A stretch of 64,000 bases of DNA from Hexactinellida sp. DTS-2022 (lineage: Eukaryota > Porifera > Hexactinellida): the NCBI GenBank assembly GCA_028753945.1, contig JAPNXP010000008.1, positions 4,832,001 to 4,896,000 of the forward strand, written 5' to 3'. The notes under the pieces are model-generated. The model was given only the letters and a program-made list of their open reading frames with translations, searched no databases and had not been told where the DNA came from. The stretch's first letter is position 1. Each line of letters begins with the position of its first letter. Positions 1,922-32,949 of this stretch are shown here, piece by piece. A program made the translations under genes and the position numbers.

Positions 1922-2344
1922 ATGCAAAGTGAAATTGACATTGCAGATGTTCTCCTTGACTATTCAGACATGGTAGACTTAGACATATACCTACCAAAGG
2001 AAATGGAACCAAGAGGTGTTACTTCCGGTCTCCCCGACCGGCTGCCTAGCTTCCCGTATCTCCCCGACACCTCTATTCGGGAGCTCAAGCTCTCGGAGTT
2101 CTATGAGGTGTTAAGTGGCACCAGCGCCACTAGCGAGGAGGTGGAGCTGCTCAGGGTGCGGAGACGGAAACTGCAGAAGTCACACTTCAAACAGAAATAC
2201 GATAAGAAGGGGAGGGTCGCATTTCGCGATCTGGAAATAAGCCTCGGGGCTCTCTCGGTTGAAAAGGAAGAATTAGTTAAACTCAAATCCAAACTGCAAA
2301 GCGAGCTAGAGTTCTATAGGGACTCACTAGACATGGAAATGTAG
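1922..2344 (+). CDS. Maf-like bZIP protein 1 (intronless, 140 aa)
   Basis: This is a single-exon gene for a small protein with an acidic N-terminus (about residues 1-45), an extended-homology-like segment (about 50-78) and a bZIP region (about 79-135). The basic stretch starts RRKLQK at residue 81. The zipper has Leu at 104, 111, 118 and 125 and Tyr at 132, a clean heptad. Aligned without gaps to Maf proteins, the invariant Asn of N-x7-R is Lys86 and the invariant Arg is Asp94, preceded by Tyr. Maf factors are DNA-binding dimers; whether this one binds DNA is open. Five relatives lie within 20 kb. The family call rests on the heptads and the upstream basic block, and the identity is divergent. 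Confidence 0.75.
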   Translation: MQSEIDIADVLLDYSDMVDLDIYLPKEMEPRGVTSGLPDRLPSFPYLPDTSIRELKLSEFYEVLSGTSATSEEVELLRVRRRKLQKSHFKQKYDKKGRVAFRDLEISLGALSVEKEELVKLKSKLQSELEFYRDSLDMEM

Positions 2345-4529
2345 ATTATATTATTTGTTTGTTTGTTTGTTTGTTTGTATTATGCTATGCGCTGCGGCAA
2401 TAATGAATAAATGCGATTAATAACAATAACAACAACATTCTGACTTGTTTCTAACACGCAATAATAATTAACTGGACAATAATGGTTAAATCACAACGAT
2501 TGCTAGTTAATACCTGTCTATACAAATTCCGGAATAATATATTAATACGGTCTCCTGGTGTTTGTACATAGCCCAATAAATGTATTATGAATTTATTACA
2601 TATAAACTTTAATTATTGCTAAAATCACTAATTTGCTTGGTAAATACTGCTATAGTTTTATTACACTTTCAAGATATTTTCTTGAATATTAATGTACACA
2701 AAATGCATTCGGACTAAAATACATATAAAATACTTAACGAAAACAGCTTGAGTGAATAATTCTGAATATTTCTGAATATTTTAAGGACACTTAAGTACCT
2801 TGGAGATAGTTCCGGGTAATTGGAATTACGTTTCGAATGTAATAAATAAATAGAAACAAGTTCCCTAATTTATTCACAATATCACCCTACTCTCTTTTGT
2901 AAATACAAACAATAACACTTTCAGTCAGAATAACAGATGAAAAATAGAATTAAAGCAAATATTAATTATTTATTATTTGAAAAAGAGGATAATTGGAATT
3001 TATTTTATGAATAATTTATGTGAATTTGGAAAGCGAATGGATACAAACGTAATTAATTTCAATATGGAATTAATGGAATATTATATTATACTAGTGCACA
3101 AATACACTGTAAGCTAGTTTTGGAAATGATTGCAACAAATACTATCTCAGTCATAAAACAGGAAATTTTTTGCAAAAAATCAGTAACAATCCGCTACTAA
3201 CATTTCAGTAGATAATTAGCACAAAATTCAAATAACTTTTAATAATTAGCATAAATAACTAATCAATTTCTATTGGGTAACATAGCGATAATACAATTGG
3301 GTAACTAACATATATATGTGAATTAACTGTGCAAACGGTAAATTGGATAAATTAATTAATATTTTTCTTAATTTCAATAGTAAAATTACTGTTAACAAAT
3401 CAGTATTTTGCCTGACACCAAAAAGGAAATGAAAAGTTATAAAAATTAAATTCCAGTCCTCTTATCAATGTCTCTAATGGGGATACAATATCAACTTTGT
3501 TGTGAGAGCTAAACAGATGCAATATTATGTAAAACAAATAATAACAGGACAGTATCAATTATGCTAATTCGAAATGTAGATTTATACACATTCTACTAAT
3601 TAAGCAAAATAGTACTATGTAGCTAGTATCATATGTAGATTTCTGAAATAGTAGAAACTGAAAGTATACGCACAGTTTGACTAATTAGCGCATAGCAATC
3701 CCTGAGGAATAATGATATACACTGTTGTACAGTTTCAGTTAGTATTTAAATAGAAATGAAAATCCCTCTGAGGTACAAGTAAGCATAATTATTAAATTAA
3801 TTCCTAATTACTCCAAATATGTTAAACGTTCTTAAGTGTTTAATTTCATAGAAGTTAGTTCTGTTAATGTCTGGTCATTGATTGGTAGTGTGGTGCTGTT
3901 GTCGTTGTTGTTGTTGTTGTTCTAATAGTTGTTGTCTTAAAGAGGTTTGATTGTATAAGAAGTGACTTTTGAGTTCAGTTAACATATTAATTTGCTGACT
4001 CATCAGTCTCTCTCTCTCTAGAGCCCGCCTAAGAGCTGTTGGCGCCTATTTAGGTGTCACCTCACTAGGGGGGGGGGCTAATTTTACAGCTGAGAATCGC
4101 ATTCCCGGATTTGCTAAGAGCTTAACACGTTTGTTAGAATATAAATGTATCTAATCTGAAGGGATATAATTGCAATTCGCATTTCTTGATAACTTCATTC
4201 GTTCCATTTGCTATTCATACAAACGAATATAACAAATCGACTTTGCTATTCTGCAACAGGAAATAGAATTCTACTTTGAATAAACAACAACAACAACAAA
4301 CTTATACTCACGAGACACATCAATAGTTAGCATCAGTGTGTCCTAGGGCAAGGTTTATCATATTTTCACACCTATACGGTCGTATGCGCGAAATGTAAAA
4401 AATTTCAATTTATTAATTAAACAATTTAAAGAATTAGCAGCGATTAGTTAATCCCTCAACACAACCTAGTGACAGAAAGGGTAGATTGCTATGCAGATTT
4501 AACACTATAGACAGTACATACTACGCAGG
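2345..4529. other. AT-rich intergenic DNA between Maf-like gene 1 and MTA
   Basis: No gene is recognised. There is a (GTTT)n tract just after the stop at 2345, a GTT tract near 3898, a MARE-like site at 3993-4005 and otherwise AT-rich unique sequence. The piece at 2527-2570 resembles MITE family B. Confidence 0.55.
3993..4005. promoter_or_regulatory. MARE-like site
   Basis: TGCTGACTCATCA matches the Maf recognition element TGCTGACTCAGCA at 12 of 13 positions. It lies between Maf-like gene 1 and the 3' end of MTA. Its function is inferred only from the motif and its position inside a Maf-like gene cluster. Confidence 0.3.
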
Positions 4530-6302
4530 CTAATTATAGTGCGAGGGGAGGATCTGATTGGGCGGCTGCGTCTCTTCCGAACACAGCTGTTTGGGGGCGG
4601 GACTGTGGCTATCCATGGTCACGGGCCGCAGTCGCTTGGCGCTGCTCGCCAGGAGGGGGGAGGGGACCATAGGGACCAGGGGGTCCGGGAGCAGGAGGGG
4701 CAGGGGCTTAGGGGAGTGCAGGGGGCCCTTCAGGAGCGTCCGGACAATCGGACTGGTCGGGTGCGGCTGTGCCAGCGCCAGCTCATTGAGCTCCTCGATG
4801 ACGTCAGCCATGGGACGCTTGTCGGTGTACTTCAGGCCGAGGCGCCGGGCCCGGAGCGGGAAATCCGTGTCCTCCGGGACCTCCAGGGGGCGGTCCGGAA
4901 ACGCGCGGAAGGGGAACCGCGAGAGACGCAACACCTCGCGCCGCGACACCTTGGTGCGCACGAATAGGGACACGGAGGTGGCGTGCATTAGGAAGTTGGT
5001 GGGGGGCATCAGCTGTTGCATGGTGGCACCCGGCTGGTTCGGATGCTGGCCGGAAATGTGTCGGCGCAGGGTGGATTTGCTCTTGAAGGTCTTGTCGCAG
5101 TTGGGCATGTGGCAGCGGTGCGGCTGGTGCTGCCGCATGTGGTTGGTTAGGCGCTCCTGGCGGTTGAACTGCTTCTTGCATTGCGGACAGGTGTAGACCT
5201 GTTCCGGGTGTTTGTCGTGGTACTCCCAAGCAGTGGGGAGTTTGAGGCCCCCGAACTTCCGCCAGTATATCATGCAGTGGTTGCAGACCCGACAGCCCCG
5301 CGAGGGGTCCCCCCAGACATGCCACTTGTTGCTAACCGTCGCGTAGCAGCTCTCACAGGCCTTCCCCCCGTCGGCCGCTTTAACTTGTGTGTCCACCGGC
5401 ACCGCCTCGGGCAGGTCGCCGCTGGAGGGGGCCAGGCCGGCCAGGTTAGTTGGGCCCTGAGAGGGGGGCCCCGAGGCGCGGATTAGGTGCACTATGACCT
5501 CTTTAAGATCGTTCTGTTTGTCCTGCAGCTTTACCTTGCGCTGTATTTGGTACTGCTGCGTAGTCTTCCAGAGGTAGTAGTAGGATATGACAGACTTGAG
5601 AGACTTCTTGGGGAAGAAACGCCGCTGGATGTATAGGAAGTCCTTGTGCTCTATTAGCCCTAAAGACATGTAGCAATGGGATAGGGAATAGTACGGTATA
5701 CTCTGCTTAATAGAGACACCGGTTAATATATTTATCCACTTAATCGGGTCAAAATTTAACAGGAATTACATTTTGGCTAAAATATTTCGGTTAATATATT
5801 TCTCCGCTTAACCTGGTCCCTAGGTGGCTCTATCAAACAACAGAGTACACAGTACGTTAGCAACAGGACTGTCGAAAGGAATGCTATACCTTGCTGGAAC
5901 AGGTTTGCCTCCTCTGCTGTCCAGGCCTCCAGCTCGTCGCAACAGACGATCGGTCTCCCGTTAATAACGAACCCGGATATGCCCCCGGCCAGGTCATACC
6001 TCGCGGCATGCAGCGTATCCAGTGCGTGGAAGAGGGTTATGTCCCGTGAGGCAGTGGCCGCCCCCAAACGGAGGGGCATCCGGTTAATGTTGTTGCTGTC
6101 GTCAACAAGGGCGCGGGCAAAGGTGCCCACGGAGCGGGCCAGGATGAGGAACTTCTCGATGTCCTCGTCCGGGATCTGGGAGGGGACCCATACGGGCGTC
6201 TCCAGATCAGCTGTTTCTCGCTCGTAGGAAGGCGGGATAGCCAGGACAGCGGGCACCTCCGCTTGGTACCGAGAGCCGATGCGCATCTCCCCTATAGAGG
6301 TG

Positions 6303-6336
<34 letters not shown>

Positions 6337-9300
6337 GCAGTATATTCATTGTTGGTGTGATCGTTTAGGTATGTTGTTATTGCAATAATAACAAATGTTG
6401 TTGTGTATAGATTCATTTGTTGTTGTTTCATTTATTGACACATTGCAGTTTAATTGTTGGTGTGATCGTTTATAATAATTTGTTGTTGTTGCTTTGTTAT
6501 TTAGGTTAGTTGTTGTTGTGTAGGTTTTGTTGTTGCAATAATAACAATTTGTTTTGTTTAGATAAATTTGTTGGCGTTGGTGTTTTTATTGGCAATAATT
6601 AATAACTGTGTTGTTGTTGTTTGTTTAGATTAGTTGTTATCGTTTAGGTTAGGTTTGTTATTGTTGTTTAGATAAAGTGTTGTTGTTGTTGTTGTTGTTG
6701 TTGGTGTTGTTGTTTGTTTAGACTAGTTGTCATCGTTTAAGTTAGGTTTGTTGTTGTGTTTTGTTTAAATTAATTAGTTGTTGTTGTTGTTGTTGTTGTT
6801 GTTTAGAACGTACCCTTGTCCACCATGAGTGTCTTCTGGTTGGGGTCATACACCATGGAGTAGTAGAACTTGTCCTCATCGGTGAGATACGACAGCAAAC
6901 TCTCCAACTCGTTAAGGACAGTGACGTTGCATTTCCCCCTCACCGCGTCTATGCGGAATGTCTCCATCTGTCTCGACAGGAAAAGCTCTCTGTGCTTTAG
7001 CTGGTGTCTCGCGACCTCCGTTATGCCACTCCAGATCCCCTCTGGGGGCCCGATATCTACAGACACCTCGTAACAACAACAACAACAACAACACCTCCGT
7101 TATGCCACTCCAGATCCCCTCTGGGGGCCCGATATCTACAGACACCTCGTAACAACAACAACAACAACAACACCTCCGTTATGCCACTCCAGATCCCCTC
7201 TGGGGGCCCGATATCTACAGGCACACTCGTAACAACAACAACAACAACAACAACAACACCTCCGCTATCTAAGGCACACTCATAACAACAACAACAACAA
7301 CACAATAGCATACCAAACACACAAGAACAAGAACAATACAATAACATAACAATTACAACAACATAACTGAGTCTGTTATTGACTACAGTAGATGCCGGTT
7401 ATAATAAACATTCTACTGGAAAACGGTTACTATATACCCTGTATAGGTTATAAGAACATTAAGTGCAGTTCCCGACGATGCGATGTTCTTATAACCGGCA
7501 TCCACTGTATAAGGAAATACTGACAAGTGAACACATTATGTAGTATTTCAGGCGCCAATTACACATACCTAATAGCAACTATAACTGACAGGGTTCTGAT
7601 AACGCATTAATTCTCACAAGATACATGTACCAATGTAACACGTGAGAGATTATTAGTCCAAACAATATATTCCATTTAATTGGGATATTCAGACAGCATA
7701 ACCTCTATAAGGAATTATATAGTTCAGTTCCCATAGCTCATAAAAGCGAACTATATTACAACAACAACAAACAATAGTCGGTTAATTAATATAAATAGAA
7801 CTTCTAGAAGTTTAAATCAGTTTAAATAATTCCCAAACCGAATAAATAATGTATGATGCAATCTAACTATATTTAGACACTAGGATAATATAAATATTCT
7901 ACGGTAAGTGAGACTATTGAGTGGCATAATGTATAATTAGAGAGTATTAGCTAGCAATTAAAGTCCGAACACAGATAATAATAGAACAAACACTAATATT
8001 GCACATGGAGTTATTCAGATCAAGTGTTGATAAATACGGGAATGTGTGTTCACACAGACAGACAGCACACGGGATTATGGCCACTCAGCAGACGACACAG
8101 CTCTGCACCAACCACACGCATGCAACCACCAACTGCGGGAACTGCGGGAACGGTTTCTGCAAGAATTGCTTTATAAGAAGTTCCGGACAGGAACCAGCCT
8201 GTCCGGTTTGTAACGAAAAGCTGGAAGCTTTCGGAACGGAGGAGACGAGCGAGGATAAATGTGTTATCTGTCAAGACGCTCTTATTGGCCCGCGCGGGTT
8301 TCTGCCCTGCGGCCACTGTTTCTGCTACCACTGCATAACCCGGTGGCTCCAGGAGTCCCACTCCTGTCCAGTCTGCAAACTCGACACCGCAGACCTCACA
8401 AAGGCGCCCCCTCTCACACACAAGCGCCCCCCTATGCCCCCTGGCCCTGTGGCCGCGGGGGCGCTCCCGAGGTTCCTCTCGCTGGACGCGGGCCTGGATC
8501 CGGGGGGGCGGCGGGGGCGCGGACAGTTCCTATGTCCGTGCGGCCGGAAGTGGCGCAGCGCCAACGCCTACGCGGGGGTGCGACAGACCTGCGAGAGGTG
8601 TCGCAGGGAGGTGCGGCCCGTACGCGTCACGCCCGCGGGGGACCGACTCAGTCCCGGTCGGCACCGGATAGATATGTGTGGGATGTGCCGGCAGATGGGC
8701 AGGGATTGCAGCTCCCAAGGGAGATTCACGCTAGAAGATCTTGACAAGTTCTGCGAGGCGAATAGCACTTATAGTAACTGAGAGGCCATCCATGGTACAA
8801 TGCTTAGTACTTAGTACCTAATAATCAGTATGTTATACCCACTTTGTTATACTGTTGTTGTTGTTGTTGTTGTTGTTTGTTTGTTTGTATTCACTATAAT
8901 AGCTGCTATAGGCGTAATTCACTTAGTGTTTCGAGGTGCTAACTCATTAAATTCGGTAGTGGTTAAAGTGTTAGTAAGTGTATAATAGGATCATAGTATA
9001 CGTATACAGACATAGAATGTTGTTGTTGTTGTTGTTGTTGTTGTTGCTGTGACGAGGAACTGACAAGTCCAGATGCTGTTTATAGAATGTGTTAATTAAT
9101 GAATAGTTTGTTAGCAAGTACAAACATGCGAAGATTAAGTGTAGTATCCATGGTAAACAAACAAGCAAATGCATTCTGAAACAGATGAGGAATCAAACTT
9201 GTGACAAATGAGAGAATAACAAACAGATAATTCGCCGAAATATTTCCTTAGTTCCAGTTCAGCAGACAGAATGGTAACAGAAATAGAATAGTTTCAGATT

Positions 9301-10454
9301 CAGACTATTTGCTATTTTAAGACACACAACTAATTTCATAGAATTGATGAGTAGCAGAATTTGGTTGTAGGGTGCACAATAATGCACTTTTTAATTAAAA
9401 TTAGAATTTGAGTTTGAAGTCGCAAAGCTTAACTAAGCGATTAATTAATTAATTACTGTAGAACGTACTAACGAACTGTAATTACTATTACAACCGTATA
9501 ATATGATCTAGACATACATCAGATGAAAGGTTCATTTCCTATCAGGATATTATCCAGGAGCGCGCCATACGCCTAGAGGCTATTAATTGGAATATATTTG
9601 CTGCCGAAAGTCCCCATAGAGTAATACAAACTAACCATTTAGACGTCAACATTCATACTCTAGTGACTGTCAACTCTTAAGAGTGTTCAATTCTAGTCCA
9701 TTATAAGTTGTACAGTTGAAACCGGTTTCGACTATACACCTTTTGGCTTACATAATCCCTACTCTATTGCCCTACCATATATCCATTACAGTACCTGTAT
9801 ATACCTGTATATAACATCACAACTAACCCTGGGGTGGGTCCGTGGCGTATACCCTAGCTGGCCTAGCATATACCTACTACAGTACCTATATACCTGTATG
9901 ATATATAACACACAACTAACCCTGGGGTGGGTCCGTGGCATTACCTAGCATATAGCCATACAGTACCTATATACCTGTATGATATATAACACACAACTAA
10001 CCCTGGGGTGGGTCCGTGGCATTACCTAGCATATAGCCATACAGTACCTATATACCTGTATGATATATAACACACAACTAACCCTGGGGTGGGTCTGTAG
10101 CATATACCCTAGCTGGCCTAGCATATACCCATACAGTACCTATATACCTGTATGGTATATAACACACAACTAACCCTGGGGTGGATCCGTGGCAGTGCCC
10201 GCCTGCCGCTGTCGGTCGCGCTCGTCCTGCAGCTCGTATATGTGGTCCTCCTCGAGCTGACTCGCGTGTCTGTCTGCCAGCTGGACCAGGGACGCGGGCA
10301 GGTCCCGGCGGCGGAAGAAGCACTTCACGTACACCTCCACACTGCCCTTGCAGTTCTTGCGGAGCTCCTCGATGCGGCAGATCTGGTACGGCTGCGGCGG
10401 GGCCGTGCTCTCCATGTACACGTAGTCCCCCAGGCGGTACAGGCCTTCTGCCAT
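4530..10454 (-). CDS. Metastasis-associated (MTA) homologue, NuRD subunit, with added C2H2 fingers
   Basis: MTA proteins scaffold HDAC1/2 in the nuclear NuRD complex. I place four exons: 10454-10175, 7056-6814, 6291-5890 and 5659-4530 (2055 nt, 684 aa). The phases agree throughout. The second exon could instead start at 7041. Exons 1-2 carry the BAH domain (starts [13 protein letters not shown]; later HRELFLSRQ and [13 protein letters not shown]). Exon 3 is the ELM2 domain ([26 protein letters not shown]). Exon 4 has the SANT domain (SYYYLWKTT) and a GATA-type finger C-x2-C-x17-C-x2-C from residue 410. Two C2H2 fingers at about 466-514 follow (C-x2-C-x12-H-x3-H and C-x4-C-x12-H-x4-H), then the conserved MTA region ([20 protein letters not shown]). 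I do not recall the C2H2 pair in vertebrate MTA1-3. Intron 1 (3.1 kb) hosts a RING gene on the other strand. Confidence 0.92.
7015..7270. repeat. Tandem copies of the MTA intron 1 / exon 2 junction
   Basis: The start of MTA exon 2 with its splice acceptor is repeated upstream in the intron with a period of about 79 bp. Copies begin at 7015 (the real exon), 7094 and 7173, with a partial one at 7259, separated by (CAA)n tracts. Each full copy keeps the GTAG and CCCAG acceptor candidates. Confidence 0.85.
7384..7509. mobile_element. MITE family A (CAGTAGATGCCGG termini)
   Basis: The 126-bp element begins TACAGTAGATGCCGGTTATA and ends with the inverted form TTATAACCGGCATCCACTGTA, flanked by TA. 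It contains a conserved internal GTTCCCGACGATG. Other copies or fragments lie at 13995-14171, 14817-14895, 16095-16289, 31037-31106, 43684-43812 and 47449-47519. It is probably a Tc1/mariner-type non-autonomous element. Confidence 0.75.
8005..8781 (+). CDS. RING finger / 3CxxC zinc-finger protein nested in MTA intron 1
   Basis: The single-exon gene encodes 258 aa from the ATG at 8005; an in-frame ATG at 8077 is an alternative start. It is a likely E3 ubiquitin ligase. An N-terminal Cys/His cluster (CTNH...CGNC...CKNC...CPVC) precedes a canonical C3HC4 RING: CVIC, then CGHCFCYHC, then CPVC. After a Pro-rich linker the C-terminus has [13 protein letters not shown] and CGMC, the pattern of 3CxxC zinc-binding domains as in ZAR1 and RTP proteins. 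It runs opposite to MTA and lies wholly inside MTA intron 1 (7057-10174). The RING call is firm. The 3CxxC call is from the Cys spacing and the W after the first pair. Confidence 0.85.
   Translation: MELFRSSVDKYGNVCSHRQTAHGIMATQQTTQLCTNHTHATTNCGNCGNGFCKNCFIRSSGQEPACPVCNEKLEAFGTEETSEDKCVICQDALIGPRGFLPCGHCFCYHCITRWLQESHSCPVCKLDTADLTKAPPLTHKRPPMPPGPVAAGALPRFLSLDAGLDPGGRRGRGQFLCPCGRKWRSANAYAGVRQTCERCRREVRPVRVTPAGDRLSPGRHRIDMCGMCRQMGRDCSSQGRFTLEDLDKFCEANSTYSN
8782..9810. other. Rest of MTA intron 1, no gene seen
   Basis: AT-rich sequence with (GTT)n tracts at 8853-8887 and 9019-9048. I see no coding features here. Confidence 0.5.
9811..10200. repeat. Tandem copies of the MTA exon 1 / intron 1 donor junction
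   Basis: The last bases of MTA exon 1 and its GTTAGT donor (plus-strand view AACTAACCCTGGGGTGG) recur at about 9829, 9921, 10002, 10083 and the real junction at 10175, with spacings of 81-92 bp. Each unit also carries intronic sequence (TATACCTGTATGATATATAAC). Confidence 0.85.
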
Positions 10455-10478
10455 GCTAATAACTGGATATGTATAGGG

Positions 10479-10825
10479 CAGCTGTTATAGGGGCAGCTGT
10501 TATAGGGCAGCTGTTATAGGGGCAGCTGTTATAGGGGCAGCTGTTATAAGAACAGCTGTTATAGGGGCAGCTGTTATAGGGGCAGCTGTTATAAGAACAG
10601 CTGTTATAGGGGCAGCTGTTATAAGAACAGCTGTTATAGGGGCAGCTGTTATAAGAACAGCTGTTATAGGGGCAGCTGTTATAAGAACAGCTGTTATAGG
10701 GGCAGCTGTTATAGGGGCAGCTGTTATAAGAACAGCTGTTATAGGGGCAGCTGTTATAAGAACAGCTGTTATAGGGGCAGCTGTTATAGGAACAGCTGTT
10801 ATAGGAACAGCTGTTATAAGAACAA
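10479..10825. repeat. 15-bp minisatellite of CAGCTG E-boxes upstream of MTA
   Basis: About 23 copies of a 15-bp unit (CAGCTGTTATAGGGG or CAGCTGTTATAAGAA) lie 25-370 bp upstream of the MTA start codon. Each unit contains the palindromic E-box CAGCTG, a bHLH site. It lies in the promoter or 5' UTR. The open frames across it are artefacts of the 15-bp period. Confidence 0.85.
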
Positions 10826-10979
10826 CTGATTGGTATAGGCATGGGCGACAACTTTTGAGACCGGACACCAAAATTTGGGGGGTCCTAATTGGAAATTGGG
10901 GTGGTCCTAATGGGATCGGACCCCGAAAAGGGAAGTTGGCGCCTATGGGTATAGGAACAGCTGTTTGGTATATACGCAC

Positions 10980-11933
10980 AACACAGTGCTAATTTAAGGA
11001 ACAGATTAGACTTGCAAACTGGAGTGTTATGCTAATTACTAATTAAGTGGTTCCCAACCTGGGGTCCACAAGATGTCTAATTGATCACAGGCAATGGGAG
11101 GGGGTCCACAGGATGTCTAATATTTGGTATAGGGGGTCCACGGGTGAAAAAGGTTGGGAATCGCAGTATGTCATTATATTAGATTGTCAGAATGTCTGTA
11201 TAATATGGTTTGGAACCCTGTAAATATATAGTTCCACATTAGTGCTAATTAGGATACGAAGTCCTCAATTGACTTGGGCTATAAACCAGCTACTAGGGTG
11301 ATTAGAAATGAGTGAGGGACAGTAGATAGTATGTAGCTATTGTAATATGAAACAAATAGTCAGTTAATGCTGATTAGTTAAACTAAGCAAAAATATGACG
11401 TAATACAGCTAAGTAAATGTAGTGTGTGCGTTCTAGTTTTAAAAATTAATAATTCTAATAATTATATCTGTTTGTTTGTTTGTTAATATGTTTGTTTATG
11501 TGCTAATAATTAGTTAGCTAGTTAGTTAGTTAGTCAGTTAGTCAGTTAGTTAGTTATATTGTTTCTTTGATTTGTGTTGTTTGGCTTAAAAATAAATTTA
11601 ATTGTAAATATATTTGTTTACTTCAGATCAATACCTAGGTAATTGTTTACAAATCACATACAAACAAATATATTGATATACCCATAGGAATGATTTGCGA
11701 ATAACAGGTATTAAGCCGACAGGCGTTAAGAAAATAAACTCTAAGTATTTATTAAGTGATAATCTGATAAATATTAAATATACAAATCAAATCCCAAGGG
11801 TAAATAACAAGCTGAGACAAGCTATAATAACTCCAAACAGAATTTACAATCTAAGTATTTACAAATCTCGAGGTGTGCATTGACAGTGATTAACTACGGA
11901 ATATTCGGAAATAGGGGAATCCTGGCACGAGAG
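10980..11933. other. Intergenic DNA between MTA and Maf-like gene 2
   Basis: AT-rich, with a TIR element at 11048-11166, a (GTTT) and (AGTT)n tract at 11470-11560, and no recognised gene. Confidence 0.5.
11048..11166. mobile_element. Short TIR element (GGTTCCCAACC termini)
   Basis: GGTTCCCAACCTGGGGTCCAC at the left is mirrored by AAGGTTGGGAATC at the right, with GGGGTCCAC motifs repeated inside. The terminus resembles those of hAT-type MITEs. I found no clear target-site duplication. Confidence 0.45.
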
Positions 11934-11943
11934 TATATATATA
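11934..11943 (+). promoter_or_regulatory. TATA box of Maf-like gene 2
   Basis: TATATATATA lies about 55 bp upstream of the ATG at 11995. Confidence 0.45.
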
Positions 11944-11994
11944 GGAAATAATATAAAATATGTATAATTACAGTTCTGCGAAGAAATACAAGGA

Positions 11995-12291
11995 ATGTCC
12001 GGGAAAGAATTGACTGTTTTGAGCGAGGTGTTTATCCGGGAGGCCAGCTGTGAGGAGCTGGAGAAACAGCTGGAGGGAAGGTGCGAGATAGAAGTTATGC
12101 GCATAAAGTGTCTGCGGAGAAGGCTCAAACAGAGGGGATATAAGAACAACTACGATAAGCGGGTCCGAGAGGGCGACAGGGATCTGGTTAGGGAAATAGC
12201 GGGACTTAAACGGGAGAAGAGGGAACTCGAGAAGGAGAGACTGACTCTGATAGCTGAGATTAGCCTGTATAGCAGGTTCACACACAAATGA
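11995..12291 (+). CDS. Maf-like bZIP protein 2 (intronless, 98 aa)
   Basis: This is the shortest of the six and the one that best shows the Maf relationship. Residues 41-56 read RRRLKQRGYKNNYDKR, matching the Maf pattern RRTLKNRGYAxSCRxKR in register, including RGY. The invariant Asn is Gln46 and the invariant Arg is Asp54. The heptad is Leu64, 71, 78, 85 and Tyr92. The preceding segment (about 10-40) sits where Maf proteins have the extended homology region but is poorly conserved. There is no activation domain. Such a small bZIP would need a partner, as small Mafs do (inference). The ATG is the first in frame after the TATA element. Confidence 0.75.
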   Translation: MSGKELTVLSEVFIREASCEELEKQLEGRCEIEVMRIKCLRRRLKQRGYKNNYDKRVREGDRDLVREIAGLKREKRELEKERLTLIAEISLYSRFTHK

Positions 12292-13894
12292 ATATAATTA
12301 ATATCTGCTTAAAGTTACATTAAATTGAGTGAGTTATTAGCGCGCGGGAAATGCAATATAAATATTTCATTCAGAACTCTGCAAATTCTGGAATAAATTG
12401 CATTAATTTAGAAGTTTTGAAATGCAAATAAATAAACTCTACTCTGCTTGCTAATTGTATTTTATTTTATGCACAAAATAATATTAAAATAATACGTATA
12501 ATATTGTACGTATTAAACGTTGGAAAATTTAAATTTAGAATCTAAATTAAACCATAGCATGAAGGGAATAAAACATTGTTATAAGTTATATTATAAAATG
12601 TTGTCTGTCACAATAAATATACTATTGTATACTATTATTGTAATACGTGTACCTGGGTATAACGTACTATACGTGTGTTTGATACAAATTAGTAGATTTT
12701 AAATGGGTCCTTATAGGTTCTTAAGTGATCCTAGTTTCAAATTATAATGGGGAGATTTTGACCGAATTTTAAACATTTTCCGTTTGGGTTAATTCGTTAA
12801 GATGTAAGGCCAGATAATACGTATACAATCCTAGCAATTAAGATACGATATTCCAAATCCCTGGTCCAGCAATGTCAATGTATGAACTAGTACCGGTAAT
12901 TGATTAGTTGCAAATAACACAATTCAATCATATTAGTTTAGTACATAGCAATCAACAGAGATTTGCTAGCAGAAAGCATTCATTTTAATTGTGATTTTCT
13001 GGAAAAATGGCGAAATAACTAATGCATAATTATGTGTTAAACCTGAATTAAAAACGCCGAATTCATCGAAGTTTAATAATAAAATGCCAACAATCATATT
13101 GACAAAAATAGGAGAGAGCATTTATACTTTCATTCTTAAATAAAGTGAATATTTGTGATTAAACTAGTTTCAGTTATACGGAACTGAAAGTTTGCTAAAC
13201 AGTGATTAATTAATTTCGTTTCGCATTTTCAAGGAATTTCGTGGGTTTCCAAAGAGTTGGCTAAGCGGAATGGTTAGAGAAGTGAATAAGCTTATTTGTA
13301 GTTGAGAAAACAGGTTTATTACTATTATTTCGTATAAAATAACATACCGTTAGTTATCACTGCGATAAAAGGGAAAGTATATGTATTATGTATGGATAAT
13401 GACAGAAGGCTAGCTAGTATTTAGGGGATTAATTGAACTGAAAGGGATAAATTGGGACAGTAACATATACTCCCATTGCTTGAATTAATAACAAATATAC
13501 TCTCGTTTGTAGGGACACCAGGGGAAGTTGAAATTGTTCCCCTTATCCTAAATTCGCATTAACAGGTGTCAATAAGTCGCCTTATCCGGAATTCGTACTA
13601 GCCAATATTATTTGCAATGAAAAGGTTTTGAAGGGAACTGTACCAACCCGGCACATAAATGGATCACTGCCCTGGCACCTAGATAAACCCCTGATTCGAA
13701 TGTTACGGGCACTAACTAATACTGACTACATAATTATATTAGGCCATCATTAATGTGGTCAATATATATGTGGAGGTATTTAATTAAGAAGACTAATGAA
13801 ATAAATCTGTTTTAACAAATTTAATAAATAACACTTTTGTAGATAAGCCGCCATAGAGTGAAGTGACAATTTTAATTATTATTAGCCGAGCATC
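12292..13894. other. AT-rich intergenic DNA
   Basis: No gene is recognised. A degraded family B-like element lies at about 13494-13640. Confidence 0.5.
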
Positions 13895-14223
13895 CTTATA
13901 TGTAGACAGTCTATAAAAGCCCATACAAATAAGCTAAAAATTTGTAACCGTCTATAAATTATGTAGACCGAAAGCCCCTGCCGTCTATGGGTAGTACAGT
14001 AGATGTCGGATATAAGCACACCGGTTATAAGAACATATCGGATATAAGCACACTATGTTGGAAAACGTTTGCCATCTACCCTGTATAATTTATGTCGGTT
14101 ATAAGAACATGCCGGTTATAAGCACCTTAGTGCAGTTCCCGACGATGTGCATATAACCGGCATCTACTGTACTAATTTATATTTAAGAAAACCTGGTCTA
14201 GAAATAGACGGTCTACATATAAG
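13895..14223. mobile_element. TIR element with another MITE inserted in it
   Basis: The ends form a 20-bp inverted repeat with one mismatch: CTTATATGTAGACAGTCTAT at 13895 and, read from the other end at 14223, CTTATATGTAGACCGTCTAT. A family A MITE occupies 13995-14171 inside it. Confidence 0.65.
13995..14171. mobile_element. MITE family A copy, nested
   Basis: It starts TACAGTAGATGTCGGATATA and ends ATAACCGGCATCTACTGTA, with partially duplicated internal segments. It sits inside the larger TIR element at 13895-14223. Confidence 0.7.
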
Positions 14224-15124
14224 TTATTTCATATAATAATGCCTTCAAAAGAATAGCTTAATAATACAATCTAGTTATGGATACAATAGGATAAAGGAGT
14301 ATTTTCCAACACAGTATGTAAGTTAGTGCAGTAGTACATAGCGAGAATAAAGCTGGGTAAATACAAAGGGACTTCGGAATAACATAAATGGATACGAATT
14401 GACTTACAAATCAGGAAATATCAAAGAGTAGAAATAGCCGGATTATAATTTATGTACAATTGGCAGATCGTTTCATGCTATGCATTAATACATGGGATAT
14501 TATATATCTTGTATCTAAGATAATAGCTGAAAGAACAATTTCATTTTCACCATTTTAGCAAAATACAAATAATGAAAGTATCTAATATCACTTATATGTT
14601 ATAATCAAATTACTAATAATCCCTTAATCGTGTTATCTACTATACGTATATATTAATTTACCGTGTATAATAGAATGGGAATTCCCTATATATTACCGAT
14701 ACCGGTTATATGTATGACCGGCATAGCATATATATTATGCTGGTTATAAATGAGCTAATAGTAAGGTGTACAAACCTCGCAATATAACTAACTGTCAGAA
14801 ATAATTGTAATAATTATACAGTAGATGCCGGATATAAAAACACCCGTTATAAGAACAATATATGCAGTTCCCGACGATGTTCTGATAACCGGTAGCTCTA
14901 TAGAGAAGTAAATAGGAATTTGAATAGCAACGCTTATGGTCTAGTGGCACGCATAATTGTTGCGGAATCTATTCCCAATGGTAGCAGTTAAGTTTGTTAA
15001 ATAATGAGACAGTATATTGCAAGTAGGAAAGTTATTAAAATAGCATTTGTGTGCATCTACAAAATAGCATTGAACAGAATTGCAAGCAAATTAATCAAGA
15101 GAATGAGCATTATTAGTTATACAG
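14224..15124. other. AT-rich intergenic DNA with a MITE A remnant
   Basis: A family A fragment lies at 14817-14895. I see nothing else. Confidence 0.5.
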
Positions 15125-15688
15125 TATAATCCTATTGCTTATTGAGCAGAGTCTCCAGGTGCTCTATTTCGGCGATCAGCTGTTCCCGCTCCCGCCTGAG
15201 TCTCTCCCGCTGCTCGCCCAGCTGTCTCAGCCCGGCCCGCTGCGCCTGGTCCCGCGTGCGCTCCTTGCGGTCCCACCCGCGCTTGGCCAGCCGCTTCCGG
15301 AGACGCCGCTTCCGCAGCTTGACCGCGGCCGCCTCGCCGGGACGGAGCCCCGCCTCTCGGAAGAGGGCGTTCAGGGGCTTGGCGCCCGTGACTCTCAGCG
15401 CGTCCTCGTCCCGGAGGAGCGACAGCAGCTGGCCCTGCGGCGAGCAGGCCCCCCCGCTGACCGCCAGACGCCGCTCCAGGGCCTCCAGACAGGACCCGTC
15501 CTCCGGGCTGTCCCACTGGCTACCGGGCGGGTAGAATGGAATGTGCTCTGCTGGAACCACTGTCTCTGGGTAGATGTAGTCTCCGTTTGTGTAGTGTGTA
15601 GTGCCAGCGCCGTAGCACTGAGATGCAGTCGTATACATATCCATTCAGTTAATGATAATGTGTTATTTGTTGTTGTTGTTTGTTTACT
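15125..15688. repeat. Left arm of an inverted gene duplication
   Basis: This arm is the near-identical reverse complement of 17562-18122. It covers Maf-like gene 3, its 5' leader (TAACACATTATCATTAACTG) and a CAA tract. Similarity stops a few bases after the stop codon and just upstream of the leader CAA tract, so the TATA regions differ. Confidence 0.85.
15132..15644 (-). CDS. Maf-like bZIP protein 3 (intronless, 170 aa)
   Basis: The Tyr-rich N-terminus (about 1-45) is followed by an extended-homology-like segment (about 73-108, with PLNALFREAGL) and the bZIP. The basic stretch KRRLRKRLAKRGWDRK starts at residue 112, and the zipper runs Gln135, Leu142, Leu149, Leu156, Leu163. The invariant Asn is Lys117 and the invariant Arg is Asp125, preceded by Trp. 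The segment before the basic region aligns ungapped with Maf (L-x8-K-x3-R). The gene is unusually GC-rich against its AT-rich flanks. Its inverted copy at 17605-18117 differs at only five residues. Confidence 0.8.
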   Translation of the reverse strand: MDMYTTASQCYGAGTTHYTNGDYIYPETVVPAEHIPFYPPGSQWDSPEDGSCLEALERRLAVSGGACSPQGQLLSLLRDEDALRVTGAKPLNALFREAGLRPGEAAAVKLRKRRLRKRLAKRGWDRKERTRDQAQRAGLRQLGEQRERLRREREQLIAEIEHLETLLNKQ

Positions 15689-15715
15689 GCCTTGATTAAT
15701 ATCAGAAGCCTTGGA

Positions 15716-15724
15716 CCTTTTATA
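15716..15724 (-). promoter_or_regulatory. TATA box of Maf-like gene 3
   Basis: On the minus strand TATAAAAGG lies about 75 bp upstream of the ATG at 15644. Confidence 0.5.
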
Positions 15725-17541
15725 GGACACATTTAGCCACGTGTCCAACTTCTCTTTATTTAATTAAAGTGAAAAACAAAAAAAATATACATTATATTTC
15801 TTGAAATGAAAATGACTTTTTTATTGAGTTGTATTAAAACCGTTGTTCAAGTAAGTACGTAGTATATGCAGTAATTTTCCAGAAAATATAATAAGTATCT
15901 ATCTAAAGGGAGTTATTCAACTGGTGACGAGACACATTTTAATGTAGCAATATTTACTGGTTTGTCAAAGTATTCCAAATAATAAACTGTTGTCACAGGT
16001 ATGAATAAACAAATTGAAATCAAGACAGTCATTTATACTGGGTATTTAACCGGTACAGTAAATAAACAAATTAATAACGAATAGTTTGATATAATATAGT
16101 AGATATCGGATATAAGAACACCGGTTATAAGAACATACCGGTTATAAGAACATACCGGTTATAAGAACATACCGGTTATAAGAACATTCTACTGGAAAAC
16201 GGTTGCCATATACCCTATAAAATTATGCCGGTTATAAGAACACTATATGCAGTTCCTGACGATGTTCTTATAACCGACATCCACTGTATAATCTGTTTGT
16301 TATTATTTAAGGTGTTTACTTGTTTCTGTCCTATTTTAAAGTACAATATATTACTCAGAATTACTTTAGTTTAGTTAGTATATCCTCGTAACCATAAGGG
16401 TAGAGAGGAATGTAAGCTACTGAATATAATACAGGTGTCCCATAGGGATATCTGTCCATAGACAGAGTAGCTCAAAATACAAATATAATATCTGTAAAGG
16501 ACTTCCCAAATAACACGTAAACAATGAATAAATTAAATTGCATTTTCAGTTCAGTATCATCAAATTTGTTAGATAATTATTACTTAGAGAGTATATTAAT
16601 TACGTTAGCGACACAACGTAACAATAGGCATGCCTTACAGTAAAACTCAAATTGAAGGTAAGAAATTAAGAATCTAATTACAAACAACGTAAACACAAAA
16701 TAGGACACGAATTATATGTCGGAGTTTCCACAAATTACCTATGATGAGTAACAGCTAATAAAGGCTTTTTTATGTAAACAACAACAACACCTGTAGAAGC
16801 ATAAAGCAAATAATAAATTCGTAAATATACCAGTGTCCACGATTCACACTACTAAACAAACGACCCCTCATTTTAAACAGGTACCAATGGGTACATAAAC
16901 AGGCCCCTATGTATAATACAATTTTCATTTGATTATGAAATTAATATAAGTAGACTCCACTTAATAGAGTCGCCTTGTAATTGAGATCTCCGCTCAATTT
17001 GGTCACCATTTCACAGCAATATTTTCGGTTAATTGGGTTCAACTAATCTTTGGTCAAGTTACTCAATTGAGTAGATTCGACTGCGTTAATGTAATTAAAC
17101 ATAAGATAATTAAAAATGAATTTGTAAACTAAGTTAAATAAACCTTAATAAAACAAAAATGGGGTGTTACAAATTCTATTTCATCATTATCTAATTAGCT
17201 AGAAAAGTTAATGTGTTTGTTCCTTACCAAAACCCTTTAACTACGTAACGTAGCCTAATCTAATATACCCATAGATCTGTATAATTATAATATTAGCTTT
17301 CTTAAAGTGAAACCTCATATATTATAATCTCATTGCTTTCAATGTATTGCAGAGCCATAGATAGTAATTATTCAATAATGAAATTTGATATAACAATAAA
17401 TCTGAGTTTCATAAAAATACAGAAAAAACTGAGAAATGTAGTAGTATCGCTTTTTATTAAAAATGAAAGCAAACAAATGGAACCAAAATTAATATAATGG
17501 ACACCAAACCGAAAATATAAATTCCTCAGATAAACGCTTGA
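15725..17541. other. Spacer of the inverted gene pair
   Basis: AT-rich spacer with a family A MITE at 16095-16289 and a weak MITE-like palindrome at 16951-17089. No gene is recognised. Confidence 0.5.
16095..16289. mobile_element. MITE family A copy
   Basis: Begins TATAGTAGATATCGGATATA and ends ATAACCGACATCCACTGTA. The internal CGGTTATAAGAACATAC motif is repeated four times. Confidence 0.65.
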
Positions 17542-17550
17542 TATATAAAG
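17542..17550 (+). promoter_or_regulatory. TATA box of Maf-like gene 4
   Basis: TATATAAAG lies 55-63 bp upstream of the ATG at 17605. Confidence 0.5.
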
Positions 17551-17561
17551 AGGGTAGACTG

Positions 17562-18122
17562 TAAAACAAACAACAACAACAAATAACACATTATCATTAA
17601 CTGAATGGATATGTATACGACTGCATCTCAGTGCTACGGCGCTGGCACTACACACTACACAAACGGAGACTACATATACACAGAGACAGTGGTTCCAGCA
17701 GAGCACATTCCATTCTACCAGCCCGGTAACCAGTGGGACAGCCCGGAGGACGGGCCCTGTCTGGAGGCCCTGGAGCGGCGTCTGGCGGTCAGCGGGGGGG
17801 CCTGCTCGCCGCAGGGACAGCTGCTGTCGCTCCTCCGGGACGAGGACGCCCTGAGGGTCACGGGCGCCAAGCCCCTGAACGCCCTCTTCCGAGAGGCGGG
17901 GCTCCGTCCCGGCGAGGCGGCCGCGGTCAAGCTGCGGAAGCGGCGTCTCCGGAAGCGGCTGGCCAAGCGCGGGTGGGACCGCAAGGAGCGCACGCGGGAC
18001 CAGGCGCAGCGGGCCGGGCTGAGACAGCTGGGCGAGCAGCGGGAGAGACTCAGGCGGGAGCGGGAACAGCTGATCGCCGAAATAGAGCAGCTGGAGACTC
18101 TGCTCAATAAGCAATAGGATTC
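17562..18122. repeat. Right arm of an inverted gene duplication
   Basis: Reverse-complement partner of 15125-15688; spacer about 1.87 kb. Confidence 0.85.
17605..18117 (+). CDS. Maf-like bZIP protein 4 (intronless, 170 aa)
   Basis: It differs from protein 3 at five positions: Thr26 for Pro, Gln39 for Pro, Asn42 for Ser, Pro51 for Ser and Gln162 for His. The homology segment, basic region and zipper are otherwise identical, with Lys117 and Asp125 at the two normally invariant contact positions. The near-identity points to a recent duplication or ongoing gene conversion between the inverted arms. The coding frame is intact in both, so both are probably functional. Confidence 0.8.
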   Translation: MDMYTTASQCYGAGTTHYTNGDYIYTETVVPAEHIPFYQPGNQWDSPEDGPCLEALERRLAVSGGACSPQGQLLSLLRDEDALRVTGAKPLNALFREAGLRPGEAAAVKLRKRRLRKRLAKRGWDRKERTRDQAQRAGLRQLGEQRERLRREREQLIAEIEQLETLLNKQ

Positions 18123-19671
18123 CAAGCTCACCAATGTGTCGTCATGCAAGCAACAAGGCAAATAGAAATCTCACTTCGCAGCAGCAAAGATATAATTAAT
18201 TGTATTAATTTCGCGCGGTTTATTAATTCTGTTTTATAAACAAAATGCAAATACATTCTGATTAAAAATGCTGACCTATCAATTCAGTTAATTATTGATT
18301 TTCATAAATTGCTTAGACACCATTTTATGTTGAAGGAATATATACTACAGCTCAACATAACTATCTACCATCTTGTAACCAAGCAATAAATATTAATTGG
18401 CGGTCATTGGAGATCAGCAGTAAAGTTTTGATAAAAATACGATATTAAATGTGAGTTCCTGTGCGAACAAATCAGGCTTTTATCAAGGCAAATTTATTTG
18501 CGCGCCTAGATTAAGTTTGAGCTCGCTCACACGCGCCTAAATATTCGATTTGTATTACGTCTATGGGAGCATATCTCGATTTTTACGCGCCTAGACAAGT
18601 TTATTTTCAAAATTACGCGCCTGGATAAATCCTGGAGCAAATTATAAATTGAAAATCCCATTCAATAACTGAGACGTCTGATCAAGGAAAGTTAGAGAAT
18701 TTATAATTAAATTCATGGAAAAACATAAAAGTCAACATTTCCTGTAAATAAGAATGCTCCAAATTACTTTCAATGATATTTCTGGCATAATTGCATTAGT
18801 CAGTGTACGTCACTAATTAAACAAGCAATTTGACCCACAGCTTATGATGCAGTCTTAACTGATCATAAACCGATCTCATAAATATACCAACCATCAGTAA
18901 TATAATCTTACAGGTATATTTGGGATAACTTATATAATATATAATTAATGAGTCAGGGATTTATATTACCATATATGGGCATACGATGATGTGTTATAAG
19001 AGTATTTATAGCAAAGTACAAGCAACAGAAAAAAGTTTAAATCCAGTAAATATCGGGATTTGACTAAGTAAGTATATTATTTGTTTGCAAATAATAATTT
19101 TATAAGAATAGAGAGTCATAGGAATTCCAGTGGAGATAATATAACAAATTTCCAGAAAAAAACATTTATTCAAAAAGGAAATGAGGAATGCAGAATAAAT
19201 CATTAATGAATAATTATTAATTTAATTAATAAAGCTAGAATAATATAACCTAATTAACATAAATGCCATATTAAATGGAATTTCTAGAAGATAGTAAGTT
19301 AGTGTATAGGATTTGTTTGTAAATATATTGTCTACTAAGTAGGGATTACGCAAAATTAAATACGAACTAACCTGCTATAATATAGTGCAAGTAAACAGGA
19401 ATAATCAAATGAGTTGTTAACTTACCACTTTTGAATAAAATGCTAAGTTTACAAACACCTGCAATAAGACCAGAGAAAGCAAATCTGAAAGTAAACAAAA
19501 GTTAATAAACAACAATAAACATTCTGAAAGCTTTAAATAGAACATTACCTGGATACACGAGTGTGTATAGGAATGTCTCTAGAGATTGAATCGAAAGTCA
19601 GGACTGACAATATCCAAAAACCAAACTTATTGGTATACCAATTCAAATCTAAATATAGAACATAAACAAAG
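18118..19671. other. AT-rich intergenic DNA with CGCGCCTA motifs
   Basis: No gene is recognised. Four CGCGCCTA/G motifs lie between 18500 and 18622. The rest is AT-rich unique sequence. Confidence 0.5.
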
Positions 19672-19679
19672 TATAAATA
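19672..19679 (+). promoter_or_regulatory. TATA-like box of Maf-like gene 5
   Basis: TATAAATA lies 40 bp upstream of the ATG at 19719. Confidence 0.4.
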
Positions 19680-19718
19680 TTAAGAACGGTAAACAAATAA
19701 ACACAAACAAACTCACAT

Positions 19719-20213
19719 ATGGATATGTCTTGTACCAGTGGCGCATACTTCAATATGGAACCAACTCATCATCTGTACATACCGGAACTGAAACTAAGGT
19801 GTGGAGGCCCGGCTAGGGTACCCCCGCTATCAGAGGTCCTGCGGGAACTGAGAACAGGGGCCACGGGGGGGCAGGAACAAAGGGGACTGTTAGAGGTGTT
19901 AAGTAGCGAGGATAAACTTCTGAGGATAAGAACAACAGAGCTGAACAAACTTCTGAGAAAAGCAGGGGTTTCCGAGGAGCAGTGGAGAGGGATAAAAACC
20001 GCGAAAAGAAAGATTCGCAAGAAGGTAAACAAACGGATTTCGGACGGACGGAACAAGAACAAACTTGTTGAATGCGAAAGCGAACTAACGGCTGCTTTGA
20101 TAGAAAGACAGGTGCTCCTGAATGAGATAGAGAGTCTAGAGAGAGATTGCGAATTCTATCTAGTCAGCATGGACAGGCTACAGAGAGAGTGGCATTCCAA
20201 TCAACCATACTAG
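19719..20213 (+). CDS. Maf-like bZIP protein 5 (intronless, 164 aa)
   Basis: The extended-homology-like block is clear (residues 64-92, with TTELNKLLRKAGVSEEQ), followed by the basic stretch KRKIRKKVNKRISDGRNK from residue 96. The invariant Asn is Lys101 and the invariant Arg is Asp109. The zipper is weaker than in its relatives: Cys119, Ala126, Leu133, Leu140, Tyr147. The EFY ending of the zipper matches protein 1. A start at 19719 gives the MDM N-terminus shared with proteins 3 and 4. Confidence 0.75.
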   Translation: MDMSCTSGAYFNMEPTHHLYIPELKLRCGGPARVPPLSEVLRELRTGATGGQEQRGLLEVLSSEDKLLRIRTTELNKLLRKAGVSEEQWRGIKTAKRKIRKKVNKRISDGRNKNKLVECESELTAALIERQVLLNEIESLERDCEFYLVSMDRLQREWHSNQPY

Positions 20214-21393
20214 TGTTGCTATGGAGTGTGTATAGCAAACGGTACCATGGACTATTGGTTCTCGTTTGTATAACTTGTAGTTCCAATTCTAACTTATAAA
20301 TACTACATGTACTATGGATTAATAGATTAACAAAGAGAAATATTGTAGGGTTAATTAAACAGCGTTAATTTGAGATGGAACATGGATACACTAACGGGGC
20401 AAAGGAATTTGAGCTCACATATTCTTATCTGTAACTTTGTACACATTTTGAGGTTACCAGTAACCAGTCTGAATCAATATAAGTATGGAACATAGCGTTC
20501 TAAACATGTTCTCAAACTAATAAACTCAATTAATGATATTCCATTTTTGTCATTACTAATTAACATTTGACACAAATACTATTGTAAGTATTCAATAGCT
20601 CGGAGGAAACACAGTTGAAACAGGTTTTTTCTAACCATTTCTTTTCAGAAAAAATGCAGAGAAAAACCCGATGAAAAACACTAGTAAATTGGAATTTCTT
20701 AAAAAATATTGTATCACAAATAGCTAGAATAAACCGATAAGTTAGATTAAACCGGTTTCGACTGTAGCTCATAGAGACTAGATAGGAATTCGGTTATACC
20801 GGATACGATGGCTATTAATGTGTCTCTGCTTTAATTGCCAGGCGCCAGGGGACGCGAGACGGTAAGCACAGAGATGCGTGTACCCCCCAGCTGTGTCAGC
20901 CGAGAGGGAGATAAGAGTAGACGGGAATATAACAGAGGAGTAATAATAACTTGTATATGGGCGTATAACAAAGTGGCATTTGTAACTTTATTACAACATT
21001 CAAGGGACCGAATTGTGTTCATAATAGAGAAACTTTATAATAAGCGAACTCAACACAATTCAAATCCTATATAAATTGTTAAATTTTGGACCATAGGGCT
21101 TGTTCATAATAAAAAGATGTTCATATTAAGCAGACGAAAAGCAGACCTGACTGAATAATAATTAATGCAACGTGTGACACAGACTAGCAGATTGTGTCCT
21201 AGCAGGAACAAATAATATGCATTTGGAATTGTATTTGTAGCTAAACATAAATTGAGTTGCAAGATACACAATTAAATGAATGAATAAAACTCTGTTTGTT
21301 TGCACAGCCGTGCATAGCGTAGAGGACAACAACAACAACAACACGGACCTATAACAGCATAGACAGGACAGCGCCTAACCAGAAGAGGAGTGA
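20214..21393. other. AT-rich intergenic DNA
   Basis: No gene is recognised. A short CAA tract lies at 21328-21342. Confidence 0.5.
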
Positions 21394-21792
21394 TTAGGTG
21401 GCGCGTGCGCTCGCGTGTATGATGCCCTCGCAGTAGGTGTGCACCTCGTTTTGCAGAGCCAGCTTCTCGCCCAGGAGCCGATTCTTCTCGACCAGGAGCC
21501 GCGCAAGGTGTCGCTCTAAATCCGAGTTACGAACCTTCGTGCGGGCCTCGAATCCCTTCTTTGCTACGCGCTTTCTGAGCAGGCGTTTGTGCTTCTTGAT
21601 GCGGTCCGTCTGCTCCTTAGAGAGCTCTGGCGTGGAGCGGAGCACTATGTTCAGGTCGATTGCCTCTATGTTAATGAAAACCGCTTCATCCTGCAGGAGG
21701 GCAAGCAAAGTACGCATAGACATCCGCGATCGTGACTCGTCAATGGATTTGAGGTACCGAATTATTTCTGAAATATCCGATTTTTTCCCCAT
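21394..21792 (-). CDS. Maf-like bZIP protein 6 (intronless, 132 aa)
   Basis: The homology block is at about residues 28-66 (LLALLQDEAVF, DLNIVLRS, LSKEQ), with LSKEQ matching the Maf motif LSKEE. The basic stretch KRLLRKRVAKKGFEARTK starts at residue 69. The invariant Asn is Lys74 and the invariant Arg is Glu82, preceded by Phe. The zipper heptad is perfect: Leu92, 99, 106, 113 and Tyr120. The gene is intronless with a TATA-like element about 50 bp upstream. It is the last member of the cluster. Confidence 0.8.
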   Translation of the reverse strand: MGKKSDISEIIRYLKSIDESRSRMSMRTLLALLQDEAVFINIEAIDLNIVLRSTPELSKEQTDRIKKHKRLLRKRVAKKGFEARTKVRNSDLERHLARLLVEKNRLLGEKLALQNEVHTYCEGIIHASARAT

Positions 21793-32508: not shown

Positions 32509-32949
32509 AGCTAATAGGTATGCTATGTTAACACCTCCATAAGTAAACAACAACAACACTTCAGTAAGTGGGGAGTTGTGAAACTTGAAAATAATGATAA
32601 CAGAAATTATTGATTTCCGATTTCCATTTGATACGAATCCTACTCAGCTATACTACTGGCCATGTTAGAGAAAGGTTCTTATCCGCATTATAAAAGAGAC
32701 TGTTCTACTACACTATTATTTCTGTTCCCAGTAAACTAATTATTGAAAAGTTTCCGATTTCCAAAGACTAGTTTAGTTATCCAATTTCCTCTAATAATAT
32801 TCCAAACTAACTAAGAATGATTATAACAGACACTGAACTCCGGTTAATAATTAAATAAGAACTCTGTGTTAGTAGAGTGGATTGTAGCTAGTATAAATTA
32901 ATTATTTGGGTAATAAATAATACAGTAAGCGAGTATGCAAATGCAAACA
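32509..32949. other. Spacer upstream of STT3
   Basis: AT-rich, no gene seen. This is the likely STT3 promoter region, lying between STT3 and the NHL pseudogene. Confidence 0.4.

Follow-up and report, generated by a model that had tools for sequence, protein, structure and literature searches.

Six short bZIP genes with replaced DNA-contact invariants in a glass sponge genome

The DNA analysed here, a window of 64,000 nucleotides from the glass sponge Hexactinellida sp. DTS-2022 (assembly GCA_028753945.1, 112.4 Mb in 18 contigs; contig JAPNXP010000008.1, positions 4,832,001 to 4,896,000), forms the last 64 kb of its contig (C17 hereafter) and carries six short bZIP genes, W1 to W6 (Table 1). 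An earlier sequence-only reading had placed six small genes here, and we could confirm these as open, apparently intronless open reading frames (ORFs); none of the six has an internal stop, and the encoded proteins range from 98 to 170 residues. W3 and W4 are inverted copies whose proteins share 97% identity, such that the cluster provides five independent sequences and not six. The two copies differ by 9 base changes (4 silent, 5 replacement), leaving the basic block without amino-acid change; the corresponding ratio of replacement to silent substitution rates (dN/dS) of ~0.43 rests on too few changes to carry weight. A TATA-like box lies 43–89 bases upstream of the ATG in all six (27.6% of random 200-base stretches have one), and four also have a polyA-type hexamer no more than 200 bases past the stop (18.6% of random stretches); W1, for instance, has its TATA-like box at −79 and an AATAAA/ATTAAA hexamer 62 bases beyond the stop. 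Apart from bZIP, no domain exceeded its cut-off in a Pfam scan of W1–W6.

Table 1. The six short bZIP genes and the inverted duplication, in window coordinates.
Feature	Position	Strand	Remarks
Gene 1 (W1), short bZIP, 140 aa	1922..2344	+	contact segment KSHFKQKYD at 2177-2203
Gene 2 (W2), 98 aa	11995..12291	+	contact segment QRGYKNNYD at 12130-12156
Gene 3 (W3), 170 aa	15132..15644	-	contact segment KRLAKRGWD at 15270-15296
Gene 4 (W4), inverted duplicate of W3	17605..18117	+	contact segment at 17953-17979
Gene 5 (W5), 164 aa	19719..20213	+	contact segment KKVNKRISD at 20019-20045
Gene 6 (W6), 132 aa	21394..21792	-	contact segment KRVAKKGFE at 21547-21573
Inverted duplication, left arm with gene 3	15128..15685	.	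558 bases, 98% complementary to 17564-18121
Inverted duplication, right arm with gene 4	17564..18121	.	1878 bases separate the two arms

The Asn and Arg of the DNA-reading region are textbook invariants of bZIP proteins; at these two positions W1–W6 carry, in order, K/D, Q/D, K/D, K/D, K/D and K/E. The alignment is gapless from the extended homology region (EHR) block through the basic region, and within it the substitutions originally described (Asn to Lys in five genes or Gln in gene 2, Arg to Asp in five or Glu in gene 6) hold for six of six; the N-x7-R/K signature of the bZIP superfamily is found in none of the window genes. The register is fixed by the layout expected of a bZIP (basic region, then a leucine heptad zipper whose first Leu stands +10 from the Arg position), with Leu at 20 of the 24 d positions (+10, +17, +24 and +31) against 6 or fewer in eight other shifts (−4 to +4). 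Taken singly, +17 is Leu in most genes as claimed (5/6), whereas +10 is not (3/6). Other features of the earlier description recur: a terminal Tyr (at +38) in four of six, the RGY of gene 2 (QRGYK in W2), and an aromatic residue ahead of the acid in five, Ser taking its place in gene 5. When a profile of the family (25 members) is compared with solved structures, it runs along Nrf2 without gaps (best chain 7x5g_B, E-value 3.5e-9), Lys falling over Asn and Asp over Arg. The predicted structure of W3, with short helices and a single long one and with Maf chains as its eight leading structural matches (at middling Z), agrees with this register.

Replacement is not confined to the two invariants. 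Numbering the Asn position as 0, all six genes have Lys at +4, where Ala is the usual residue, and the contact set at 0, +4, +7 and +8 is K/Q, K, mostly aromatic and D/E, in place of N, A, C/S and R. In the Nrf2–MafG–DNA structure, Asn507, Ala510 and Ala511 (positions 0, +3 and +4) read the TGA half site (PMC9756947); the +4 Lys stands at the site of Ala511, and most of the reading surface is thus altered. The basic helix of W1–W6 itself remains strongly basic.

Assignment to a bZIP subfamily proved less clear-cut. A search with the bZIP_Maf model, proposed by the sequence-only reading as a check, gave mixed scores: against the curated Pfam cut-off of 22 bits (PF03131), W2 passes at 26.3, W1 (21.4) falls just below and W6 (16.2) is weak, and genes 3–5 gave no bZIP match in the Pfam scan; 12 of the 25 members of set A5 match the model at E ≤ 0.01. 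The family profile places Nrf2 slightly ahead of MafG (3.5e-9 versus 3.4e-8, nearly tied), and the region before the basic helix aligns gaplessly to the CNC motif of Nrf2. AlphaFold2 models of W3 and W1 both have short helices ahead of one long helix; the predicted local distance difference test (pLDDT) in 10-residue blocks is 85–93 for W3 between residue 51 and the basic region, and 62–85 for W1 from residue 41. The Maf combination of Tyr at +3 with Asn at 0 is absent (Tyr in W2 only, Asn in none), as is the CNC contact set N-x-x-A-A-x-x-C/S-R (0/6). In the zipper core, Lys or Arg at a14 (MafG Lys83) occurs in none of the window genes but in all four canonical Mafs of this genome, whereas the CNC arrangement of a hydrophobic a14 with a basic a21 (Nrf2 Leu and Lys536) is found in all six. 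Judged by sequence, the family lies between the CNC and Maf bZIPs and lacks the N-x7-R common to both. Its earlier description as Maf-like is consequently apt only in part: the zipper core has the CNC code in 6/6, the opposite of Maf, and the profile is slightly nearer Nrf2, although the structural comparison discussed below puts Maf chains first.

The cluster belongs to a far larger set. The bZIP_Maf model marks 54 places in this genome, to which protein searches add more; from 93 aligned loci we removed 4 canonical Mafs, 5 other bZIPs (L039, L040, L045, L053, L054) and two more loci (L105, L112) whose basic region is unclear. The remaining 82 are a lower bound for the short bZIPs of this genome (33 of the 35 places from one search were fetched). 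They are apparently single-exon, this reading resting on open frames and, for 20 loci (L113–L132), on little beyond the matched stretch; the Oopsacas protein P0057, which closely resembles L019, has 313 residues. The six window genes, formerly seen as a family of their own, therefore stand as genes and become part of this genome-wide set. Short bZIP loci of all classes are enriched near contig ends, 46 of 80 lying within 500 kb against 12.8 expected from a calculation without gene-density control.

Class labels were set by basic-region residues +3 and +8. The Maf-type class (n = 39) has Tyr (one His) at +3 as in Maf, and retains Arg in 32/39 and Asn in 0/39; the Asn position is instead Met in 15, Ser in 9, Val in 4 and other residues in the rest (e.g. 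L006, L015, L017, L022), with the altered residues conserved in the two orthologue groups compared. The CNC-like class (n = 34), a mixed remainder, keeps Asn in 24/34 and Arg in 30/34 (L065, L067, L069, L071, L118 and L128 are examples without Asn). The D/E class (n = 9) has D/E at the Arg site, K/Q at 0 and K/R at +4 in every member; it comprises the six window genes, two loci on C8 and one more on C17. The four canonical Mafs are longer, single-ORF coding regions within ~8 kb (C14:76500-86499, L009), with Asn and Arg intact.

Because the labels derive from +3 and +8, the way the zippers divide is a separate observation. Zipper positions were counted without gaps starting at the basic region, since both helices have to run in this way on DNA (the alignment program had placed a one-heptad gap between classes). 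The a-position charges separate Maf-type from CNC-type: a14 is basic in 37/39 Maf-type loci, and a hydrophobic a14 with a basic a21 is found in 32/34 CNC-like loci and 8/9 of the D/E class, including all six window genes, which carry the CNC code. These sites match the bridges Nrf2 Lys536–MafG Glu89 and Nrf2 Asp528–MafG Lys83 (numbering of PMC9756947). A score of a–a charges gives repulsion within classes (0.96 Maf-type, 1.67 CNC-like) and a low value between them (0.27). With g–e terms included, the scores of the six are repulsive among themselves (1.87) and towards CNC-like members (1.62), and favourable with canonical Mafs (−1.10) and with Maf-type members (−0.23). Canonical Mafs show a strong preference for one another (−3.00), and Maf-type self-pairing (−0.32) scores about as well as pairing with CNC-like members (−0.29). 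The scores hence predict the partner of the six, without obliging Maf-type proteins to pair outside their own class.

Relatives were sought among 5.8 billion proteins, and members were found for each of the five independent genes. Conservation was counted over 25 sequences in five orthologue groups (P0014, P0025 and W4 left out), which share the contact segments KSHFKQKYD (W1 group, 6 sequences), QRGYK..YD (W2, 5), KRLAKRGWD (W3, 5), KKVNKR.SD (W5, 2, with the single orthologue P0009) and KR..KK.FE (W6, 7). Positions 0, +4, +7 and +8 show no variation within any group, and the basic block (−9..+10) is the best-conserved region compared in each of the five; among orthologues the altered block changes little or not at all, in contrast to a divergent zipper and N-terminus. 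The same pattern is seen in a comparison group from this genome that keeps Asn and Arg (basic block 0.94 versus zipper 0.60), and in two Asn-less Maf-type groups (0.91 versus 0.71; 0.90 versus 0.66). Since related sequences keep the replacements, the six give the impression of functional proteins whose reading head is new, and not of broken genes, in line with the earlier proposal of a lineage-specific family under selection and not in decay.

The only organism named among the matches is the glass sponge Oopsacas minuta; its matches are LOD99_12912 (W2 group) and two CNC-type proteins, and W2 itself groups with O. minuta P0030. One further CNC-type match is labelled Nrf1/3 with no organism attached, and the W6 relative P0020 is a complete-type ORF from an assembled transcriptome. 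Among CNC-type homologues, 30 of 38 have an N-type basic region by text pattern, and one of the eight misses (P0061) has the Asn on inspection. Relatives of W1, W3, W5 and W6 have one longest-contig figure in common (109,181), and further figures (336,975; 266,653; 91,527; 1,278,242) pair W1 relatives with those of W2, W3 or W6; these record annotations suggest that the cluster is conserved.

Our best reading of these comparisons is that the six are CNC-side subunits that would combine with Maf-type partners and, through a rebuilt surface, recognize DNA or another ligand. In its specific form, to which we assign a probability of roughly 0.5, they would be minimal CNC-side bZIP subunits, composed of an EHR/CNC-like helical block, a basic helix and a zipper, whose rebuilt helix reads a different half site on DNA. 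Each would find its partner among the four canonical Mafs or the 39 Maf-type genes that lack Asn, since basic and hydrophobic positions of the zipper core are interchanged between the two sides. The rebuilt helix would stay on DNA by its retained basic flanks, +4 Lys and +8 Asp/Glu may form an i/i+4 salt bridge, and pairs with no activation domain of their own would repress or rely on the partner for activation. A change in DNA recognition, as the sequence-only reading had suggested, is likely given that most of the reading surface is replaced and the new residues are conserved. Against a CNC-side placement, the top eight matches in structural alignment of the W3 model, at middling Z, are all Maf chains.

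The best surviving alternative is that the six act as dominant-negative subunits, zippering with Maf-type proteins and titrating them, the Arg to Asp/Glu change having abolished DNA contact. It would account for an acid at a DNA-facing site in short proteins with no other Pfam domain over its cut-off, shares the partners predicted by the zipper code, and has a precedent in that an altered Arg abolishes binding (PMC4676100). Under such a role, however, the zipper should be conserved and the basic region relaxed, whereas all five groups display the opposite, and the new residues are fixed within groups in a helix that is still strongly basic; a purely dominant-negative function, one of the two roles first put forward, is hence less likely. 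We regard as more improbable still that the basic helix has been repurposed for RNA, a nucleosome face, importin or a protein partner: its strong conservation with Lys, mostly aromatic and acidic residues at the DNA-contact sites would fit, but there is no positive evidence for another ligand, and the block that orders the Nrf2 basic region on DNA (PMC9756947) has a recognizable counterpart in the family. That the genes are relaxed duplicates heading for pseudogenes is very hard to credit, for while five of six fall under the Pfam cut-off, the relative L058 has an irregular zipper and just four of six have the hexamer, the frames and TATA-like boxes are intact in all six, the basic block of W3/W4 is unchanged and orthologue invariance contradicts it. 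Equally far-fetched is an alignment artefact, in that a +4 shift does bring R or K to the Arg position in 6/6, but leaves Lys and not Asn at 0, drops d-position Leu from 20 to 6 of 24, and is at odds with the gapless Nrf2 alignment.

A broader and more tentative proposal, which we hold with distinctly less confidence than the specific reading above, is that, in glass sponges, a large combinatorial code with two sides grew out of an ancestral Maf:CNC heterodimer, with half sites unknown in other bZIPs. The at least 82 short bZIPs, with mostly complementary Maf-type and CNC-type zippers, would supply the two sides: all Maf-type members examined would have lost Asn, most of the CNC half would have retained it, and the base-contact residues would have been rebuilt in a third class with CNC zippers. 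The similar scores of Maf-type self-pairing and cross-pairing make the Maf-type side less two-sided and weigh slightly against such a code.

Elsewhere in the window, three ORFs were judged by eye: one with a RING-finger-like cysteine pattern (7999-8781, + strand), one resembling a piece of STT3 oligosaccharyltransferase (31816-32559, − strand) and one resembling filamin, with a CH domain and repeats (34356-38000, + strand). A tandem satellite of period 212 (~30 copies, 99% match) occupies 57606-64000 and extends to the contig end.

Both bZIP invariants replaced, Arg by an acid, and kept so across several assemblies amount to a natural experiment on rebuilding a reading head; the Maf-type/CNC-type zipper code moreover predicts partners, so that pairing lends itself to a joint test with DNA specificity. 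If true, this would be a regulatory radiation within glass sponges, one species of which is reported to be without Wnt and several transcription factors (PMC10280926). The main text of that paper has no occurrence of bZIP, leucine zipper or Maf, and the text examined of PMC10282587 mentions one upregulated bZIP and no such expansion.

Compared with known systems, W1–W6 share with CNC bZIPs (Nrf2, BACH1, NF-E2 p45) a CNC/EHR-like block, a gapless run to the zipper and a core with a hydrophobic a14 and basic residues at a21 (6/6) and a28 (5/6), Nrf2 being the best solved relative of the family profile; they differ in their replaced N-x-x-A-A-x-x-C-R contact set, in their length of 98–170 residues with no other domain found, and in being apparently intronless. 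With the Maf family (MafG, MafB, MafA) they share the EHR-like block, the RGY kept in W2 and the top-ranked structural matches; the zipper core code is opposite, Asn and Arg are absent, and the Maf Tyr is present in W2 alone (W1 has Phe). In the portions of the literature examined, we found no bZIP family in which both positions are exchanged and an acid replaces the Arg. The novel bZIP classes of oomycetes (Phytophthora sojae, e.g. the C-R class) are likewise a large lineage-specific expansion with the invariant Asn replaced (PMC4046829); the two major classes there are N-R/K/Y and C-R, and an acid at the Arg site is not mentioned among the classes covered in the available text. Plant bZIPs in which N has become K, or R/K has become I/W, resemble the sponge family in having Lys at the Asn site or having lost the Arg, but these exceptions are rare and single-site (8/585 in six legumes; PMC4676100), whereas in the sponge family both sites are swapped and fixed.
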